From assembly GCF_901538265.1 (NCBI RefSeq), contig NZ_LR593886.1, positions 8,515,738 to 8,579,737 of the forward strand: a stretch of DNA of 64,000 nucleotides, in the 5' to 3' direction. The DNA comes from Gemmata massiliana (GTDB lineage Bacteria; Planctomycetota; Planctomycetia; Gemmatales; Gemmataceae). The notes under the pieces are model-generated. The model searched no databases, was not told the DNA's origin, and saw only the letters and a program-made list of their open reading frames with translations. Positions 25,710-43,267 of the stretch are shown here, in pieces; the first letter of the stretch is position 1; every line of letters begins with the position of its first letter. The position numbers and the translations under genes were made by a program.

Positions 25710-27047
25710 TTAGCACACGGCGGACCGAGGCGTTCGCGCTGGCGAACTGCCGCGTCGCACACAAGTTAAACTCGAACCGACTACACCGACCGCCGCGCCG
25801 AGTCCGCCGAGCAACACGTCGGTGATGCAGGGCGTGTGCGTGTCGTACCAGCGCTGCCCGTTCTCGAAGAACGCGGAGACGGCCAGCCCCAGAACAACAG
25901 CAATCACCGCGGCGACGCTAACCGACCCGTGCGGGCCGCGCCTGTGGCGCGGGGGCAAGCGCCAGGCTGCAACAAGCACGCCGAGCAGCCCGAACAGCAC
26001 CAATTTCGTGAGTATCTCTTCGAGTGTAAAGAGCGGATCACCGCTTTCGAGCGGGCGCCCGGGCATCCAGTCGAACGGGCGGGGCACGTCGAGTCGCGGG
26101 GTGTTCGCAGGAGGCTGCGTGACGGGCGTCATCCCGGCGAACCACACGGTTCCCCAACTCATGGCGAACAGGAGCGCCAGCCCCTCGTAGTGAACGCGCC
26201 CCGCGTACCACCCGGCGATCACGGCCAGCGTGCCGACGACCGCGTCCGTTGTGCTCGGAGTGCGCGACTTCACAACCAACTGCGCCGATTCCAAGCACAG
26301 CGCAACAGCCCCGGCCGCGAGCGCAATACGAATCACGCTCCACGACCGCACCCGCCCCCCGAGTCGCGCCGCGAGCAACCCAAGAGGAAAGTACAAGCCC
26401 GCGAGTTTCGCCAGCTTCGCGATCTGCTCCCACCGCTCGGCGTCGCTCAGCCCCTCGAAGGTACCGAACGGCACGAACCGAACCGTGTCGCGTATCTTCC
26501 GATACAGCTCGGCCGGACTCGCACTGAGATCGAGCGGGAGTACCTGAATGAATGCGAGCAGCGCGAAATACGCAATGAGCACTTTTCCAGCGGCGTTCAC
26601 ATCGGCCCGCGCCCACATCAGGCGGACATGGTCGGTGAGTTTCTGGCCCCACAACACCCACGCAGCCAACCCCGCGAAGGCGCCCAAGCCCTGCGCCACG
26701 ATGTCCGATACCGAGCAAGTGCGTTCAATGGTGTAGAGTTGTGTGAACTCGACCGCGCTGGAAAACAGCAGACAGACAGGTAAGAGGAGCGCGCCGCACA
26801 CCGCGACCTTGCGCCGCGACCAGTGGCAATCGGCGGCGACCAGACCGAGGAGCACGAACCCGAGGGGCATTCCGAGCATCACGTTCGCGATCGCGTCGGA
26901 CCGCGATGTGATCTTCACGCCGTCGGCCAAGACGCGCCCGAAGCTGTTCGTGCGCGGACCGAAGTGAAACGGCACGAGGCTGCCGTACACGATGAACGCG
27001 GCCACTCCGACCAAGGCCCACGCATACACCCCGCGCACGGACTTCAC
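25710..27047 (-). CDS. VanZ-like multi-pass membrane protein
   Basis: 445 residues from GTG 27047, which overlaps the exosortase stop (GTGA) and has GAGGGGG upstream. About 10-11 hydrophobic segments. Two VanZ-like halves: YGSLVPFHFGP with IANVMLGMPLGFVLLGL and SSAVEFTQLYTIERTCSVSD (N-terminal half), and again LCLESAQLVVKSRTPSTTDA (second half), the E-x2-Q-x9-11-D pattern of VanZ. A third, partial repeat occurs near the end (DTHTPCITDVLLGGLG). VanZ-like proteins often accompany exosortases in polysaccharide loci. Activity unknown. Confidence 0.8.
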   Translation of the reverse strand: MKSVRGVYAWALVGVAAFIVYGSLVPFHFGPRTNSFGRVLADGVKITSRSDAIANVMLGMPLGFVLLGLVAADCHWSRRKVAVCGALLLPVCLLFSSAVEFTQLYTIERTCSVSDIVAQGLGAFAGLAAWVLWGQKLTDHVRLMWARADVNAAGKVLIAYFALLAFIQVLPLDLSASPAELYRKIRDTVRFVPFGTFEGLSDAERWEQIAKLAKLAGLYFPLGLLAARLGGRVRSWSVIRIALAAGAVALCLESAQLVVKSRTPSTTDAVVGTLAVIAGWYAGRVHYEGLALLFAMSWGTVWFAGMTPVTQPPANTPRLDVPRPFDWMPGRPLESGDPLFTLEEILTKLVLFGLLGVLVAAWRLPPRHRRGPHGSVSVAAVIAVVLGLAVSAFFENGQRWYDTHTPCITDVLLGGLGAAVGVVGSSLTCVRRGSSPARTPRSAVC

Positions 27048-28117
27048 CGACTCGCCCCCTCGGACGGGGCCGGTTGGGGAACCGCGGCGGACTTTGCCGG
27101 CTGCGCCGCGGTCGGGAGTGCGGCGGGTGCCCGCGTGCTGCCCTTCCCTGGTGCGGGCGCGGTCATGATGAGGTATGCCGGGTTCGCCGAATTCATTTTG
27201 AGCATTTCCTCGCGGCTCGCCTTTCCGCCCTCGTCCACGAACACCCAGTCCAGGAGCTTCAACTCGCCCCACAACACGGCCAGCGCCAGGGGCATCATCA
27301 TCCACCCCGCGAAGTCGTGGAACACGCGGTCCCCGAGTTCCTTACCGGCTTCGTTATACAGCACCCCGGTGAGCGCGATCCGCAACACGTTCGAGAGCAC
27401 CGCGACGGGCACGGCCGACACGAGGATCAGCCCGCGATCGAGCCACGGGCGCTGCACGAGCATCGCCATCCCGGTCGCGAGCGCGGCGAACGTGAGCAGC
27501 ATGCTCAGCCCGCTGCACGCTTCCTCGACCCGCAGCACGTGGTCTTTCACGTGCAGGATGATCCCCTCACGGTACGTCGGGTACCCAATGGTTTGAAGTA
27601 CGAACTCGGACGCGATCGACGCGACCTTCTGGAGCTGCCAGCCAAGGGCGTGCTCGACCCGCCAGGGCAGCGGGAACATGAACAGCAGGAACGCGAGCGC
27701 CGGCCACAGCCAGCGGAGCGCCTTCCACCCGCCCAAAAGTAGAGTTACGCCGCACAGGTTCAGCACGAACGACAGCCCCTGCATCCACTCTTTACCGACG
27801 TTGCGGTCGCCGAATACGACGAACAGCCCGCCGCCGACCGCGAGGAACGCGAGCCCCCACGGTTCCGGCCAGCGGACGCGCTCGGGCGCCCACGAGCGCC
27901 AGCGCCACGCCAGGTACGCCGCGAAGAACGGCACGAGGAACCCGTGCGAATAGTCCGGTTTCAGCCACTCCCCGTAACAGTACCGGAACAGAGCGGCGTA
28001 AACGAACACCAAAACCCCGACGAGCGCGACCAGGGCCGCGATCCAGCCGGGCGTGCGAACCACTTCAGCGGCGAGAGCGGAACCGGACCGCGACGGAGAA
28101 GGGGAGGCTGAACTCAC
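27044..28117 (-). CDS. Exosortase (XrtA/PEP-CTERM-type transpeptidase family)
   Basis: About 357 residues with eight hydrophobic segments. The exosortase catalytic residues are present: Cys in VEEACSGLSMLLTFAALATG, Arg in LSNVLRIALTGVLY, His in VFHDFAGWMMMP. Exosortases cleave and anchor PEP-CTERM-type proteins and are linked to exopolysaccharide loci, as here. A C-terminal extension of about 40 Ala/Pro-rich residues follows. Start: GTG 28117 has GGAG about 10 bases upstream; a GTG at 28240 gives 41 more residues but no good ribosome-binding site. No obvious sorting substrate is encoded in the window. Confidence 0.85.
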   Translation of the reverse strand: MSSASPSPSRSGSALAAEVVRTPGWIAALVALVGVLVFVYAALFRYCYGEWLKPDYSHGFLVPFFAAYLAWRWRSWAPERVRWPEPWGLAFLAVGGGLFVVFGDRNVGKEWMQGLSFVLNLCGVTLLLGGWKALRWLWPALAFLLFMFPLPWRVEHALGWQLQKVASIASEFVLQTIGYPTYREGIILHVKDHVLRVEEACSGLSMLLTFAALATGMAMLVQRPWLDRGLILVSAVPVAVLSNVLRIALTGVLYNEAGKELGDRVFHDFAGWMMMPLALAVLWGELKLLDWVFVDEGGKASREEMLKMNSANPAYLIMTAPAPGKGSTRAPAALPTAAQPAKSAAVPQPAPSEGASR

Positions 28118-28367
28118 TGATGCGGTCTCCAGACGAGCGGTGGGCAGTTCAACATATACCAGAATCGGGCACCGCGGGGCAGGCCGATTTCCGGGGCGCG
28201 TGCAACCGTAGGACACGTTCGCGGGCCGCGATTCTCGCACAAAGTTCCCACGAAGAGTGCGAAGTGTGTTAGCGTAAACTATGGTTATCGGTCGGATTGG
28301 GGTGTATACTCACTAGCGCTCCCTCTCCGGTACTTGCCCCGCATCCGTCCCGGCAGGGCTTCGGTCC

Positions 28368-32520: not shown

Positions 32521-34392
32521 GTGCAACGCCGCTGCTTCATCACCTCGGTCGGGCAGTTTCTCCCCGGCGAACCGGTCACGAACGAACAGATGGAAGCGCG
32601 ATTGGGACAAATCGGCCCCAAGCCCTCGGGCCTGCGCGAGCGCGTGCTGCGTCAGAACAGGATCGAGCAGCGTTACTACGCGATCGACAGCAACCAGCAC
32701 ACGACGCACACCAACGCTCAAATGGCGGCTCACGCTGTCCGCGACGCGATCGCTCACGGCACGCTCGACCTGAAGGACGTGCGACTCCTCGTTGCGGCCA
32801 CTTCGCAGGGCGACTTACCGCTCCCCGGCTTCGCGAGCATGGTCCACGGCGAACTCGACATGCCACCGTGTGAGGTCGCCACGATCCACGGCATCTGCGC
32901 GAGCAGCGTCGTCGCGCTGCGGCACGCCGCGCTCGCCGTCGGGTCGGGTGAGGTGCCCAACGCGGTGTGCGTCGCCAGTGAGTTCGCTAGCCGGTTGCTC
33001 AAAGCGTCTCGCTTTCGCGCCCAGGGGTACGGCGAAGGTAAGCGCCTGCCCTTCGAGACGGAGTTCCTGCGGTGGATGCTCTCGGATGGTGCGGGGGCGC
33101 TCCTCCTGGCGAATGAACCGGCCCCCGCTGGCCTGTCGCTCGAAATCGAGACGATCGCGCTGAAATCCTACGCGAGCCAGTTCCCGCCGTGCATGTTCGT
33201 CGGTAACCGCGACGAGGTACTCGCCGACCCGCAAGTCGGCTGGCTGGACCACGCAGACTACGAAACGGCGTCGCGGGCGGGGGCGATTAACCTGCACCAG
33301 AGCACCGAGCTACTCACCGACGTGGTGCGATTGTGCGTGAACGGCGTGTTCGAGTTGATCGAGGAGGGCAAACTCGACCCGAAAGGTGTCGACTGGTGGG
33401 TTACGCACTACTCGTCGCACCTGTTCCGCGAGCAGGCGAACGAGCTGTTCGTTCGAGGCGGGTTGACGATCGATCCCGAGCGCGTGTTCACAAACCTCTA
33501 CACGAGCGGAAACGTCGGTTCCGCGTCGTTCCCGCTGATGCTCGGCGACCTCTTCCGCAGCGGGAAACTGGAACCCGGTCAGCGCATCGTGTGCATCGTG
33601 CCCGAGAGCGGCCGGTTCATGTTCGGCTATGTGATCCTGCGCGTCGTCGGAAGCGCTAGCCCCGATGTGCGCCTAACTGCTGTCGCTCCCACCGTTTCTG
33701 AGCCGCCCGACATCAAAACTAGTGGTTCGCCCCTCGAAGAGTCACTGGTGCGGCAACTCGCGGGGGTGTGGACCGCGTTCGAGACGCGCCTGAACCGCGT
33801 GCCGATCGTGGCGAAGATGTTCGACGGGCGCGTGACACTTCAAGACTACCGCGATCTGCTGTTCAACTTGCGGCAGCAGGTGATCGACGGGTCGCGGTGG
33901 ATCTCGCGGGCCGCGTCGAACGTGACGCGCGAGCACTTCCCGATCCGTTCCGCGTTTATCAGCCACTCGCGCGACGAACACCGCGACTTCGAGATGATCG
34001 AGCGTGATTACGTATCGGTGGGCGGAAGCGCTGAGGAGATCCGCGCGGGCCAGAAGAACATCGGCAGCACGGCGCTTTCGGAATACATCCTGAGCCGCGC
34101 GAGCCGCGAGAACCCGTTCGACCTGATCGGCGCGATGTTTATCATTGAGGGTTTGGGGCGCCGGGTGGCCGCGCGCTGGGCCGAACTGATCCGCACCCAG
34201 TTGAACCTCGACCCGCGCCAAGTATCGTTCCTCGCGTACCACTCCGCGAGCGACGACGTCCACTTCGAGCGCCTCGACGCCGCGGTGCAGTCCGGCATCC
34301 TGACCGAAAAGCTGGTCGACGAGATCGTGACGGCCGCCAAGGTGGTGGCCCGGCTGTACGTTCTGCAACTCGAAGAGATCGGGAACTTCTAA
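32521..34392 (+). CDS. Ketoacyl-ACP synthase III fused to a haem-oxygenase-like (HDO/TenA-fold) domain
   Basis: 623 residues from GTG 32521 (AAGGA 9 bases upstream). Residues 1-380 form a KAS III-like condensing enzyme with Cys126 (HGICASS), His296 (WWVTHYSSH) and Asn331 (SGNVGSAS), the expected catalytic triad, so the domain should be active; the opening VGQFLPGEPVTN recalls StlD/DarB-type ketosynthases. Residues about 410-620 are all-helical with HSRDEHRDFEMIERD (482-496), IIEGLGRR (541-548) and YHSASDDVHFERL (573-585), matching the haem-oxygenase-like diiron oxidase/oxygenase superfamily (TenA, PqqC, UndA). His, Glu and Asp residues for metal binding are available but I cannot assign them firmly. 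Probable role: condensation followed by oxidative processing of an acyl chain. The next gene starts 2 bases later. Confidence 0.8.
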   Translation: MQRRCFITSVGQFLPGEPVTNEQMEARLGQIGPKPSGLRERVLRQNRIEQRYYAIDSNQHTTHTNAQMAAHAVRDAIAHGTLDLKDVRLLVAATSQGDLPLPGFASMVHGELDMPPCEVATIHGICASSVVALRHAALAVGSGEVPNAVCVASEFASRLLKASRFRAQGYGEGKRLPFETEFLRWMLSDGAGALLLANEPAPAGLSLEIETIALKSYASQFPPCMFVGNRDEVLADPQVGWLDHADYETASRAGAINLHQSTELLTDVVRLCVNGVFELIEEGKLDPKGVDWWVTHYSSHLFREQANELFVRGGLTIDPERVFTNLYTSGNVGSASFPLMLGDLFRSGKLEPGQRIVCIVPESGRFMFGYVILRVVGSASPDVRLTAVAPTVSEPPDIKTSGSPLEESLVRQLAGVWTAFETRLNRVPIVAKMFDGRVTLQDYRDLLFNLRQQVIDGSRWISRAASNVTREHFPIRSAFISHSRDEHRDFEMIERDYVSVGGSAEEIRAGQKNIGSTALSEYILSRASRENPFDLIGAMFIIEGLGRRVAARWAELIRTQLNLDPRQVSFLAYHSASDDVHFERLDAAVQSGILTEKLVDEIVTAAKVVARLYVLQLEEIGNF

Positions 34393-34394
34393 CG

Positions 34395-35315
34395 ATGCCG
34401 TCCACCGACGCGACGCAGAAACTCCAGAGCATCAAGCACAACCCGCTCGACCCGAACCCGTGGCTCGCGCTCTACATGGACACGAGCGTGCCGCTCCACG
34501 CGGTCGCGAAGGCGAACTTCCTAGTGGACGTGGCCTCCACGTCGCGCCAGTGGTTCCTGCCGATGATCCGGCCGTTCTGCCGGCTCACGATCTGCGGGTT
34601 CAAGGTGCTGAAAACGGTAATGCCGCGGTTCCTCACGTCGTCGTGGTTGCTGCACCACTCGATTTACTGGGGGCTGAAGTGGTTCGTGTCGCCCTACGCG
34701 AACTACCTCGTGATGCGCCACTTCCACATTGGCACGGAGCTGCTCCAGTTCATCGCGAAGAACGCGAAGGGCGTGAACATGGAGTTCGTGGGGCTGCGCC
34801 CGGAGAAACTACACGACCTGACACAGAACGTGTTCCTGCAACACGACTTGAACATCTTCAACTTTATCATTGAGATCAACCGGCAACTCAACGAACAGGA
34901 GTTGGAGCTCCAACCGAAGGGCGAACTCGACTTCAGTTGCATCACCGACGGCGAGTTCCCGATCGAGGACATGCCGCACGGCTGGTTCAACCTCATTGAT
35001 CTCGAATCGGCGATTGAGATGTACACGCCGATGTACCAACTGCTCCTGACCGACAGTGATTTCTGGCGCGCGTGCAACTCGCTCCAACTGGACGAGACGA
35101 TCGCGCTCTACGCGACCACTCTCCTGAACGACCACCGGTACTTGGGGCTGGTAAACAATAAGCACCCGATCGTCCCGAGTTCCACGCTCGGCGCGGCCCA
35201 CCGCCTCATGCTCCACGGCCTCGCGGCCGAATTCCTGCACGCCTTCTTGGTCCGTCAGAAGCGCGTGCGCGAGAACAAGGCCGACGCCGTGAAGCAGGAC
35301 CGACCACCGCAGTAG
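34395..35315 (+). CDS. Unrecognised protein coupled to the ketosynthase-HDO gene
   Basis: 306 residues, starting 2 bases after the stop of the ketosynthase-HDO gene. No family is recognised with certainty. Mostly helical prediction, rich in aromatic residues: MIRPFCRLTICGFKVLKTVM, WLLHHSIYWGLKWFVSPYAN, MRHFHIGTELLQFIAKNA. His residues at HH, RHFHIGTE, LQHD and HRLMLHG are candidate metal or substrate ligands. No signal peptide. The tight spacing says it works with the fused enzyme, perhaps as an accessory or a second oxidase. Confidence 0.6.
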   Translation: MPSTDATQKLQSIKHNPLDPNPWLALYMDTSVPLHAVAKANFLVDVASTSRQWFLPMIRPFCRLTICGFKVLKTVMPRFLTSSWLLHHSIYWGLKWFVSPYANYLVMRHFHIGTELLQFIAKNAKGVNMEFVGLRPEKLHDLTQNVFLQHDLNIFNFIIEINRQLNEQELELQPKGELDFSCITDGEFPIEDMPHGWFNLIDLESAIEMYTPMYQLLLTDSDFWRACNSLQLDETIALYATTLLNDHRYLGLVNNKHPIVPSSTLGAAHRLMLHGLAAEFLHAFLVRQKRVRENKADAVKQDRPPQ

Positions 35316-41741: not shown

Positions 41742-42518
41742 CTAATCCGCGGCGCACACTTCTTCCGCCGCGAGCGTTTTGCTGTTCAGTGCCTTTTCGG
41801 TTGGTTCGCGGATGTCCCACACCAACCCGACCACGCCCAGCGCGCGGATGATGTAGTAACTCATGTCGATCTCCCACCACTTGAAGCCCTGGCGGGCACA
41901 GCTCTGGTAGTGGTGGTGATTGTTGTGCCAGCCCTCGCCCATCGTCAGGATCGCGGCCCACCAGCAGTTCTTGCTCTGGTCGGTCGTTTCGTACCGGCGC
42001 GTCCCGAACAGGTGGCACGCGGAGTTCACCAGGAACGTCGCGTGGTACAGCAACACGGTGCCAACGAGGAAGCTCCACACCACGCCGCTCCAGTCGGCGA
42101 GGGCGTAGCACAGAACCGCAAGCGCGAGACCCGGCACCCACGTGAAGAACGTGTCCAGGATTCGCAGTTCGGGATACTTCTCGAAGTCTTTCAGTGCTGG
42201 GGCGTCACGAAAGCGGCCGGAGATCACCCAGCCCACGTGTGCCCACCACACCGTGCGGACGATCGGCGAGTGTGGGTCGTCTTCTTGGTCGGAGTGCTTG
42301 TGGTGGTGGCGGTGGTGCCCGGCCCACCAGAGCGGCCCCTTCTGCATCGCGGCGCAGCCGATCCACGCGAGCACGAACTGGAACCACCGGCTCGTCTTGT
42401 AGGCCCGGTGCGCGAAGTACCGGTGATACACGCCCGTAATGCCGAACATCCGCACGACGTAGAACAGTAGCCCAAACCCTACGGCTTCCCAGGTGATCGG
42501 CACGAAGAACGGCGTCAC
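41742..42518 (-). CDS. Acyl-CoA/acyl-lipid delta-9 fatty acid desaturase
   Basis: At least 258 residues from GTG 42518. Membrane desaturase with all three His boxes: HRYFAH (HxxxxH), HHRHHHKHSD (HxxHH) and GWHNNHHHY (HxxHH), plus hydrophobic segments between them. It introduces a double bond into a saturated acyl chain using a diiron centre, oxygen and reduced electron carrier. Family-like sequence continues upstream of GTG 42518 (WYARLRALPFIGLHVAAVV, the first membrane helix) up to a stop at 42714-42716, but that stretch has no ATG, GTG or TTG, so the real start may be a rare codon or lie at 42518 with a shortened first helix. Confidence 0.85.
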   Translation of the reverse strand: MTPFFVPITWEAVGFGLLFYVVRMFGITGVYHRYFAHRAYKTSRWFQFVLAWIGCAAMQKGPLWWAGHHRHHHKHSDQEDDPHSPIVRTVWWAHVGWVISGRFRDAPALKDFEKYPELRILDTFFTWVPGLALAVLCYALADWSGVVWSFLVGTVLLYHATFLVNSACHLFGTRRYETTDQSKNCWWAAILTMGEGWHNNHHHYQSCARQGFKWWEIDMSYYIIRALGVVGLVWDIREPTEKALNSKTLAAEEVCAAD

Positions 42519-42820
42519 TACCGCCGCGACGTGCAGCCCAATGAATGGGAGCGCCCGGAGCCGGGCGTACCAGCCGACCGGCGGGCGCGGGAGCTTCAGC
42601 GCGGGGACGTGCAGAGCGGGAACGACGCCCGATTGCGGTGCGGCGGTCGAAATGGGAGCGGCTCCGTGGTGTCCGGGCGTGGGTGCTGGTTTGGGTCCAA
42701 AATAAAATAGGACTCACAGGTGGCAAATGCTCGCACGAAATCTCGATTTGTGCAACGCGGATACAATGGGCGAAATCCCCGCGGGCGCACCGTCCGCGAG
42801 CAATCTTCAGTGAGCCCATC

Positions 42821-43267
42821 ATGATTCACTTTGAAGGTAACCAAGCTATTCCCCTGCCACCCGCCGAGGTTGCGGCCAAGCTCTCCGACGCCGGGTTCCT
42901 CGCGAACTGCGTGCCCGACGCGCAGGTGTCCGAAGCGACGGCGGACCACTCGGTAGGCAAGATCAAGCCGAAGCTATCATTCCTCACGGGCAGCCTGACG
43001 CTCGACGCGACCGTAACCGCGCGCGAGCTGGGCAAGTCAGTGACGTACAAGATCGACACCAAGACGATCGGTGCGAGCAGCACCGTGGAGACGAAACTGG
43101 AGTTCAAGGACGGCGAAAACGGTGGCACGCTCGTCCACTGGACCGGCGATTTGGTGGCCGTTACCGGGTTGCTCAAGATGGTGCCGAAGGGACTACTCGA
43201 AGGCACCGCTAAAAAGGTGATCGAAGACGTGTGGGCCGCGGTTGCTGCGCGGCTGACGGCGGGGTGA
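42821..43267 (+). CDS. SRPBCC/CoxG-like protein
   Basis: 148 residues from ATG 42821. Pattern of the SRPBCC (START-like) CoxG subfamily: FEGNQAIPLPPAEVAAKLSD, FLANCVPDAQ, TVTARELGKSVTYKI, and LVHWTGDLVAVTGLLKMVPK with the C-terminal helix LLEGTAKKVIEDVWAAV. Binds a hydrophobic ligand in other families; no ligand can be named. It is divergent from the desaturase gene, and could share its promoter region. Confidence 0.75.
   Translation: MIHFEGNQAIPLPPAEVAAKLSDAGFLANCVPDAQVSEATADHSVGKIKPKLSFLTGSLTLDATVTARELGKSVTYKIDTKTIGASSTVETKLEFKDGENGGTLVHWTGDLVAVTGLLKMVPKGLLEGTAKKVIEDVWAAVAARLTAG

Follow-up and report, generated by a model that had tools for sequence, protein, structure and literature searches.

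The planctomycete Gemmata massiliana carries, in a 64,000-nucleotide stretch of contig NZ_LR593886.1 (positions 8,515,738 to 8,579,737, hereafter the window), two adjacent genes whose products are encoded together in seven bacterial phyla. Gene A (32521–34392, forward strand) encodes a protein of 623 amino acids (aa) in which a ketosynthase (KS) of the StlD/DarB type is fused to a haem-oxygenase-like (HDO) domain, and gene B (34395–35315, forward strand) encodes a 306-aa protein of the DUF6999 family. Their linkage is seen both from the HDO side and from the DUF6999 side, which bears out the initial annotation of this DNA, made from the sequence alone, as a possible biosynthetic cassette. That KS, HDO, and DUF6999 form one biosynthetic module is far more likely than our combined account of what the module does, i.e. 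that it is a horizontally spread lipid-biosynthesis cassette in which the KS joins acyl chains and the HDO domain oxidizes the product, an account that falls a little short of an even chance. This compact set of genes, which seven phyla have kept as a unit, probably produces a lipid that is used by many bacteria and, as far as our searches show, is unnamed.

KS, HDO, and DUF6999 are linked in seven phyla

An HDO-domain scan of named genomes yielded 101 confirmed stretches; 80 of these were retained, so that the phylum counts given below reflect query and selection. In these 80 loci, where an HDO is present by construction, a KS was found in every case (80/80) and DUF6999 in 78/80; in the two that miss it (L033 and L042), the contig ends inside the next gene. 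Conversely, KS and HDO were both found in each of nine loci fetched with DUF6999 (L015 and L113–L120). Among 398 sampled Pseudomonadota genomes, DUF6999 was found in nine. Eight of the corresponding loci were fetched (L113–L120), all of which have KS and HDO alongside, as does the ninth (G393), which is the genome of locus L056. An HDO profile matched 71 of these 398 genomes, the nine best (at least 168 bits, the next being at 84.7 bits) being the same nine that have DUF6999, and the DUF6999 search found nothing in the remaining 62 HDO-positive genomes. The initial annotation had named absence of the pair from other genomes as an argument against a cassette, and these counts show the contrary. 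The notion that the genes are chance neighbors with no common function could draw on the genes flanking the pair in the window, a DUF1559 protein upstream and a Gfo/Idh/MocA oxidoreductase downstream, with which no pathway is apparent. It is refuted by linkage (the same 9/398 genomes from both directions, 78/80 and 9/9 loci) and retains a negligible probability.

Adding the window, and also a Pseudoalteromonas replicon that came from the DUF6999 search, to the 80 HDO-fetched loci gives a set of 82 from seven phyla: 41 Pseudomonadota, 14 Bacillota, 9 Planctomycetota, 7 Acidobacteriota, 7 Myxococcota, 3 Verrucomicrobiota, and 1 Cyanobacteriota. These were counted from record titles, the 41 Pseudomonadota being read as gamma-proteobacterial genera. 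Eight further Pseudomonadota bring the set to 90 loci, with KS in 90, HDO in 90, and DUF6999 in 88, many of the loci being closely related to each other and not independent. Pairwise distances, calculated without L028 and L029, correlate with r of 0.91 for KS/HDO, 0.84 for KS/DUF6999, and 0.82 for HDO/DUF6999, values that shared descent alone could give. One comparison is without two short KS rows (L028 and L029) and two short DUF6999 rows. The full fusion occurs at 83% identity or more in 5/95 genomes of the host's family. DUF6999 scores above cut-off in only one of 294 genomes of the phylum sample, the window's own (a match in G205 is below cut-off), which makes the pair patchy, and in one of 14 control genomes, that of Caulobacter vibrioides. 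Among the literature matches listed, from a search with most subscription papers outside it, there was no account of the KS-HDO fusion, of the cassette linkage, or of the His-to-Asp change described below.

The gene pair is under purifying selection

Both open reading frames lie where the initial annotation had placed them. Gene A has a GTG start and a TAA stop, gene B has an ATG start, and 2 bases separate the stop of the former from the start of the latter. The host genome, a single contig of 10.1 Mb, has one full-length copy of gene A and one DUF6999 match. Among the loci listed, the closest named relatives are Gemmata sp. IIL30 and Limnoglobus roseus. Each gene was compared with three relatives, which gave ratios of nonsynonymous to synonymous substitution rates (dN/dS) of ∼0.04–0.15, and differences between gene A and its counterpart in G302 fall mostly on third codon positions (10/8/90 for the three positions). 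Gene A and gene B are under purifying selection. In L. roseus (G344; L008/L018), the gene for the fusion is conserved apart from an in-frame TAG that falls ∼11 residues short of the usual C terminus. PADLOC returned no matches for either product, and a PHROGs search, run with gene B only, returned just two, with E values of 0.29 and 0.33.

The KS is a relative of StlD/DarB

The KS domain (aa 5–377; 32533–33651, forward strand), delimited by profile limits, matches the StlD/DarB family model NF005293 with an E value of 1.9e-110 (369.5 bits), far ahead of the FabH models in NCBIfam (1.7e-23 and 4.1e-20). It also matches StlD in the PDB (5gk0, E 1.9e-76; StlD in another comparison, E 6.3e-77). 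The full Cys-His-Asn triad proposed in the initial annotation is present, each residue being found in 89/90 relatives with one gap: Cys126 (32896–32898, codon checked), His296 (33406–33408), which aligns with the His position occupied by Ala in StlD 5gk2, and Asn331 (33511–33513) in a GN.GSAS motif, which aligns with the Asn of the KAS III motif GN.(S/A)AS. By its sequence, the KS is a clear StlD/DarB relative outside the curated bounds of the family. In a tree of 53 KS rows, from which L028, L029, and rows more than 85% identical to another were removed, the window KS groups with planctomycete cassettes (SH-aLRT support of 95–99). Two KAS III outgroup rows are badly placed (L012 is apparently a wrong open reading frame) and three other StlD/DarB rows are long-branched, so that the tree is silent on whether cassette KSs form a single clade, and no conclusion rests on it.

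The KS shares its family and its triad with the StlD/DarB enzymes that act alongside DarA in stilbene, dialkylresorcinol, and flexirubin pathways. It differs from them in scoring under the family cut-offs, in being fused to or beside an HDO, and in having DUF6999 adjacent. The condensing enzyme of OleABCD olefin synthesis, OleA, is likewise KAS III-like and acts on long acyl chains. No OleA-type model was found among the NCBIfam matches of the cassette KS up to an E value of 1, in a search whose library may lack such a model and which made no use of profiles for OleB/C/D-like partners. A cluster on a Streptomyces sp. NBC_00008 plasmid typed as mobilizable (L125, 6706–15113) encodes a 40.6%-identical KS III with acyl carrier proteins, an FAD monooxygenase, a P450, FabF, and FabG, and differs from the cassette in that neither HDO nor DUF6999 is annotated in the 15 kb shown. 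On Prevotella and Phocaeicola plasmids from oral and gut Bacteroidota (L126 and L127), a StlD/DarB-type KS immediately follows a TetR-family regulator, and the annotation of the displayed stretch includes no aromatase.

The HDO domain has an altered candidate metal site

The HDO domain (aa 409–620; 33745–34380, forward strand) matches PF14518 with an E value of 1.9e-8 (34.8 bits, cut-off 28.9). Its AlphaFold2 model (m686f6e04ac3f), built from 40 aligned rows, has a predicted local distance difference test (pLDDT) score of 93.4. Its structural matches include 3dde from Shewanella (Z 25.8, root-mean-square deviation 2.0, 217 residues), CADD (1rcw, Z 25.1), TenA (Z 21.7), PqqC (Z 21.4), and UndA (4wwj, Z 20.1). 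The same helical fold is shared over the whole domain with the HDO superfamily members UndA, HrmI, FlcD, CADD, and 3dde (Z 20–26). Profile match and predicted structure thus agree with the proposed fusion of the KS to an HDO-type helical domain, and the structure prediction suggested at the time confirmed the fold; in the alignment of relatives, metal-type residues are conserved (90/90).

Seven such positions are each invariant in 90/90 relatives: H482, E486, and D489 on helix 1 (33964–33987), E543 (34147–34149), and H574, D578, and H581 in an H-x3-D-x2-H motif (34240–34263), all on the forward strand. Three of the ligands named in the initial annotation (E543, D578, and H581) are therefore upheld as candidates. 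We rejected the fourth, H487, as it is Gln in 6/90 relatives and so probably no ligand. Position 456 is Asp in 33 and Glu in 57 of the 90. As comparators, we took 3dde, the three best matches below the cassette group (L137–L139), and L011. A gapless alignment places His, Glu, and His of 3dde at H482, E486, and D489, and the four other proteins have Glu and His at the places of E486 and D489, with His in one and Tyr in three at that of H482. Hence, Asp489, present in 90/90 cassette HDOs, replaces a His found in 5/5 comparators, whereas the Glu, Glu, and His-x3-Asp-x2-His positions of 3dde are kept. Another difference, from the HDO superfamily members named above, is that the cassette HDO is joined to a condensing enzyme. 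In CADD, the ligands E81 and H88 would, allowing for an offset, presumably correspond to H482 and D489. The canonical set of three His and three carboxylates is thus altered at the first-helix His, the other five positions being kept. With D489 as a ligand, the set would consist of two His and four carboxylates, or would contain three His if H482 took part. In a 2026 HDO review (PMC13108848), only about a dozen HDOs are given as validated, and the ligand sets described are three His/three carboxylates, three His/four carboxylates, and a mononuclear variant; the words ketosynthase, fusion, and fused do not occur in its text.

The altered site bears on two other explanations. In the first, the HDO-like domain would be a metal-free or structural helper like PqqC and TenA, which function without metal according to the same review (PMC13108848). 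These two proteins match the model at least as well as UndA does, and the domain lacks the His that the comparators have on the first helix, but all seven candidate positions are invariant over seven phyla with the whole H-x3-D-x2-H motif kept, and we regard such a role as very improbable. The second is an acyclic route, in which head-to-head joining by the KS, or formation of a β-keto acid, would be followed by UndA-like C-C cleavage to a long-chain ketone or alkene. UndA, a fatty-acid decarboxylase (PMC13108848), is among the structural matches, and the linked desaturases described below would suit unsaturated chains. The KS profile is that of StlD/DarB, with no OleA model among its matches from a library that may lack one, and the cassette HDO residues differ from the set of the comparators, both of which argue against this route, which we hold to be quite unlikely.

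DUF6999 has many invariant polar residues

Gene B, which the initial annotation had left without a recognized family, belongs to Pfam DUF6999 (PF22523; E 4.8e-119, 396.9 bits for a gathering cut-off of 27, profile positions 1–275 of 275). It has no PDB sequence match up to an E value of 10. Its model (pLDDT 92.0, 44 aligned rows) was compared with solved structures, the best Foldseek match having an E value of 0.047 and a TM score of 0.10, and the best in a second comparison (VIA) a Z of 5.5 over 77 residues, which is too low to mean kinship and from which fold novelty does not follow either. Eight residues (D29, R51, R108, H109, N123, H150, D151, and D202) are found in 88/88 relatives, and four more (D233, N255, H274, and E279) in 86/88, with two gaps. 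Because of these invariant His, Asp, Arg, Asn, and Glu positions, DUF6999 reads as an enzyme. The protein has a mildly hydrophobic helix and perhaps works at the membrane surface. The name DUF6999 was not found in the literature searched, which leaves out most subscription journals. Its link to KS and HDO is a first functional context for the family.

Gene layouts and membrane partners

A single protein contains both KS and HDO in 46/90 loci. The two are separate in 44/90, although one of these (L029) seems to be a fused form broken up on a contig fragment. In gamma-proteobacteria, the two are adjacent as separate genes, the commonest separate layout being MEM-KS-HDO-DUF6999, where MEM is a His/Glu-rich membrane protein. 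MEM adjoins the core in 42/44 separate loci (the exceptions are L029 and L119) and occurs in 3/46 fused loci, which are the Verrucomicrobiota. L119 (G619), unfused and with a long-branch KS, stands alone among the 90 as a complete locus with separate genes and no MEM. MEM, e.g. L015 9663–10226, has about four hydrophobic segments and 13 residues that are each found in 44/44 members (D29, H33, E46, H50, H84, E85, H89, D91, E105, H107, H109, E175, and E176), an Asp/His/Glu pattern reminiscent of a metal site. A Pfam scan of 19 members (E ≤0.1) matched TLC in two (best E 0.0023) and Baculo_11_kDa in one, nothing convincing, and a PDB profile search matched an ADP/ATP carrier (E 8e-5, 25.8 bits) over MEM positions 107–169. 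We take these matches as likeness of hydrophobic stretches, a distant tie to the ADP/ATP carrier family being possible. In a search of eight genomes, MEM was found in one, as an unlinked copy in Myxococcus G391 (neighbors read by eye), and not in G000, G302, G304, G311, G344, G390, or G619. Through MEM, the cassette draws attention to a membrane protein family that has no name.

Other membrane enzymes accompany part of the fused loci. Of 46 fused loci, 8 have a linked PF04116-type hydroxylase, and linked PF00487-type desaturases are found in 8 (group FAD) and 9 (group DES). In the planctomycete locus L021, a hydroxylase and a desaturase directly follow DUF6999. At least one linked hydroxylase, desaturase, or MEM gene is present in 18/46 fused loci and 60/90 loci overall. 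For these counts, ten proteins were Pfam-scanned and the others come from profiles seeded by members read or scanned. The lipid theme of the initial annotation is thus supported by lipid desaturases or hydroxylases linked to the cassette in many other hosts, 60/90 being the figure with MEM counted.

The layouts also bear on the order of the reactions. The HDO might act first, by desaturation, hydroxylation, or N-oxygenation of an acyl-thioester or an amino-acid-derived starter that the KS then extends, giving a different class of signal or membrane lipid. HDOs are known to catalyze desaturation and N-oxygenation, among other reactions (PMC13108848), and the adjacent separate genes of gamma-proteobacteria fit either order. 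Fusion of the HDO downstream of the KS and the analogy with DarA weakly suggest instead that it acts on the KS product, and no amino-acid-activating gene was recognized among the 40 largest neighbor clusters, which were read without profile annotation. We consider this order unlikely.

A proposed lipid pathway

In the account that we prefer, the KS would act as StlD/DarB does and condense a pair of acyl thioesters, probably including a β-ketoacyl chain, into a cyclic 1,3-dione or a β-keto lipid equivalent to it. The fused HDO domain would take this product and oxidize it with O2 at a metal site, by oxidative decarboxylation, aromatization, or hydroxylation, so doing the job of the separate protein DarA in dialkylresorcinol pathways. 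DUF6999 would be a further pathway enzyme, perhaps at the membrane surface, and the alkyl chains would then be modified, in hosts other than this one, by a desaturase or hydroxylase of the membrane di-iron type. We infer both the KS reaction and the oxidation of its product by the HDO domain; a resorcinol-like product is possible. In dialkylresorcinol synthesis, DarB is listed as the cyclase and DarA as the aromatase in Table 1 of PMC3949708, and expression of darB plus darA yields dialkylresorcinol, as cited from earlier work in PMC3992019.

Several observations weigh against this account. The KS is under the NCBIfam cut-offs for both curated models, with 369.5 of 450 bits for StlD/DarB and 317.4 of 550 for DarB, so that its reaction may differ, and Glu154, which is shared with StlD and which we tried as a StlD signature, was rejected because a FabH-type KAS III has Glu there too. 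Asp489 stands in place of the usual helix-1 His, and ordinary oxidase activity is therefore not to be assumed. The unfused Pseudoalteromonas HDO protein is unrecognized by PF14518 even at an E value of 10, and the DUF6999 family carries no assigned activity. Moreover, 30/90 loci, including the window and all 14 Bacillota, are without a linked membrane oxidase of the types sought. The window does have a desaturase (41742–42518, reverse strand; PF00487, E 2.9e-22), beside a CoxG/polyketide-cyclase-like protein (42545–43267, forward strand), but it was rejected as a cassette member, being 6.4 kb off and on the opposite strand. Among four relatives read, it is near the cassette in the sister genome G302 only, and absent from the 19.9-kb stretches of G304, G344, and G311.

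A bolder claim would be that KS, altered-site HDO, and DUF6999, with MEM in gamma-proteobacteria, constitute an undescribed, phylum-crossing natural-product system making a lipid class new to bacteria, which we regard as doubtful. As far as the literature matches listed show, the parts are of known kinds, save the unassigned DUF6999 and MEM, and it is the combination, the linkage, and the His-to-Asp change that are new. The cassette also provides a naturally occurring ligand change in an HDO, which is open to direct testing.

Other features of the window

Upstream of the cassette, the window contains an exosortase (27044–28240, reverse strand; PF09721, E 3.3e-64) beside a VanZ-family protein (25710–27305, reverse strand; PF04892, E 3.1e-31), which is likely an exopolysaccharide or protein-sorting locus.

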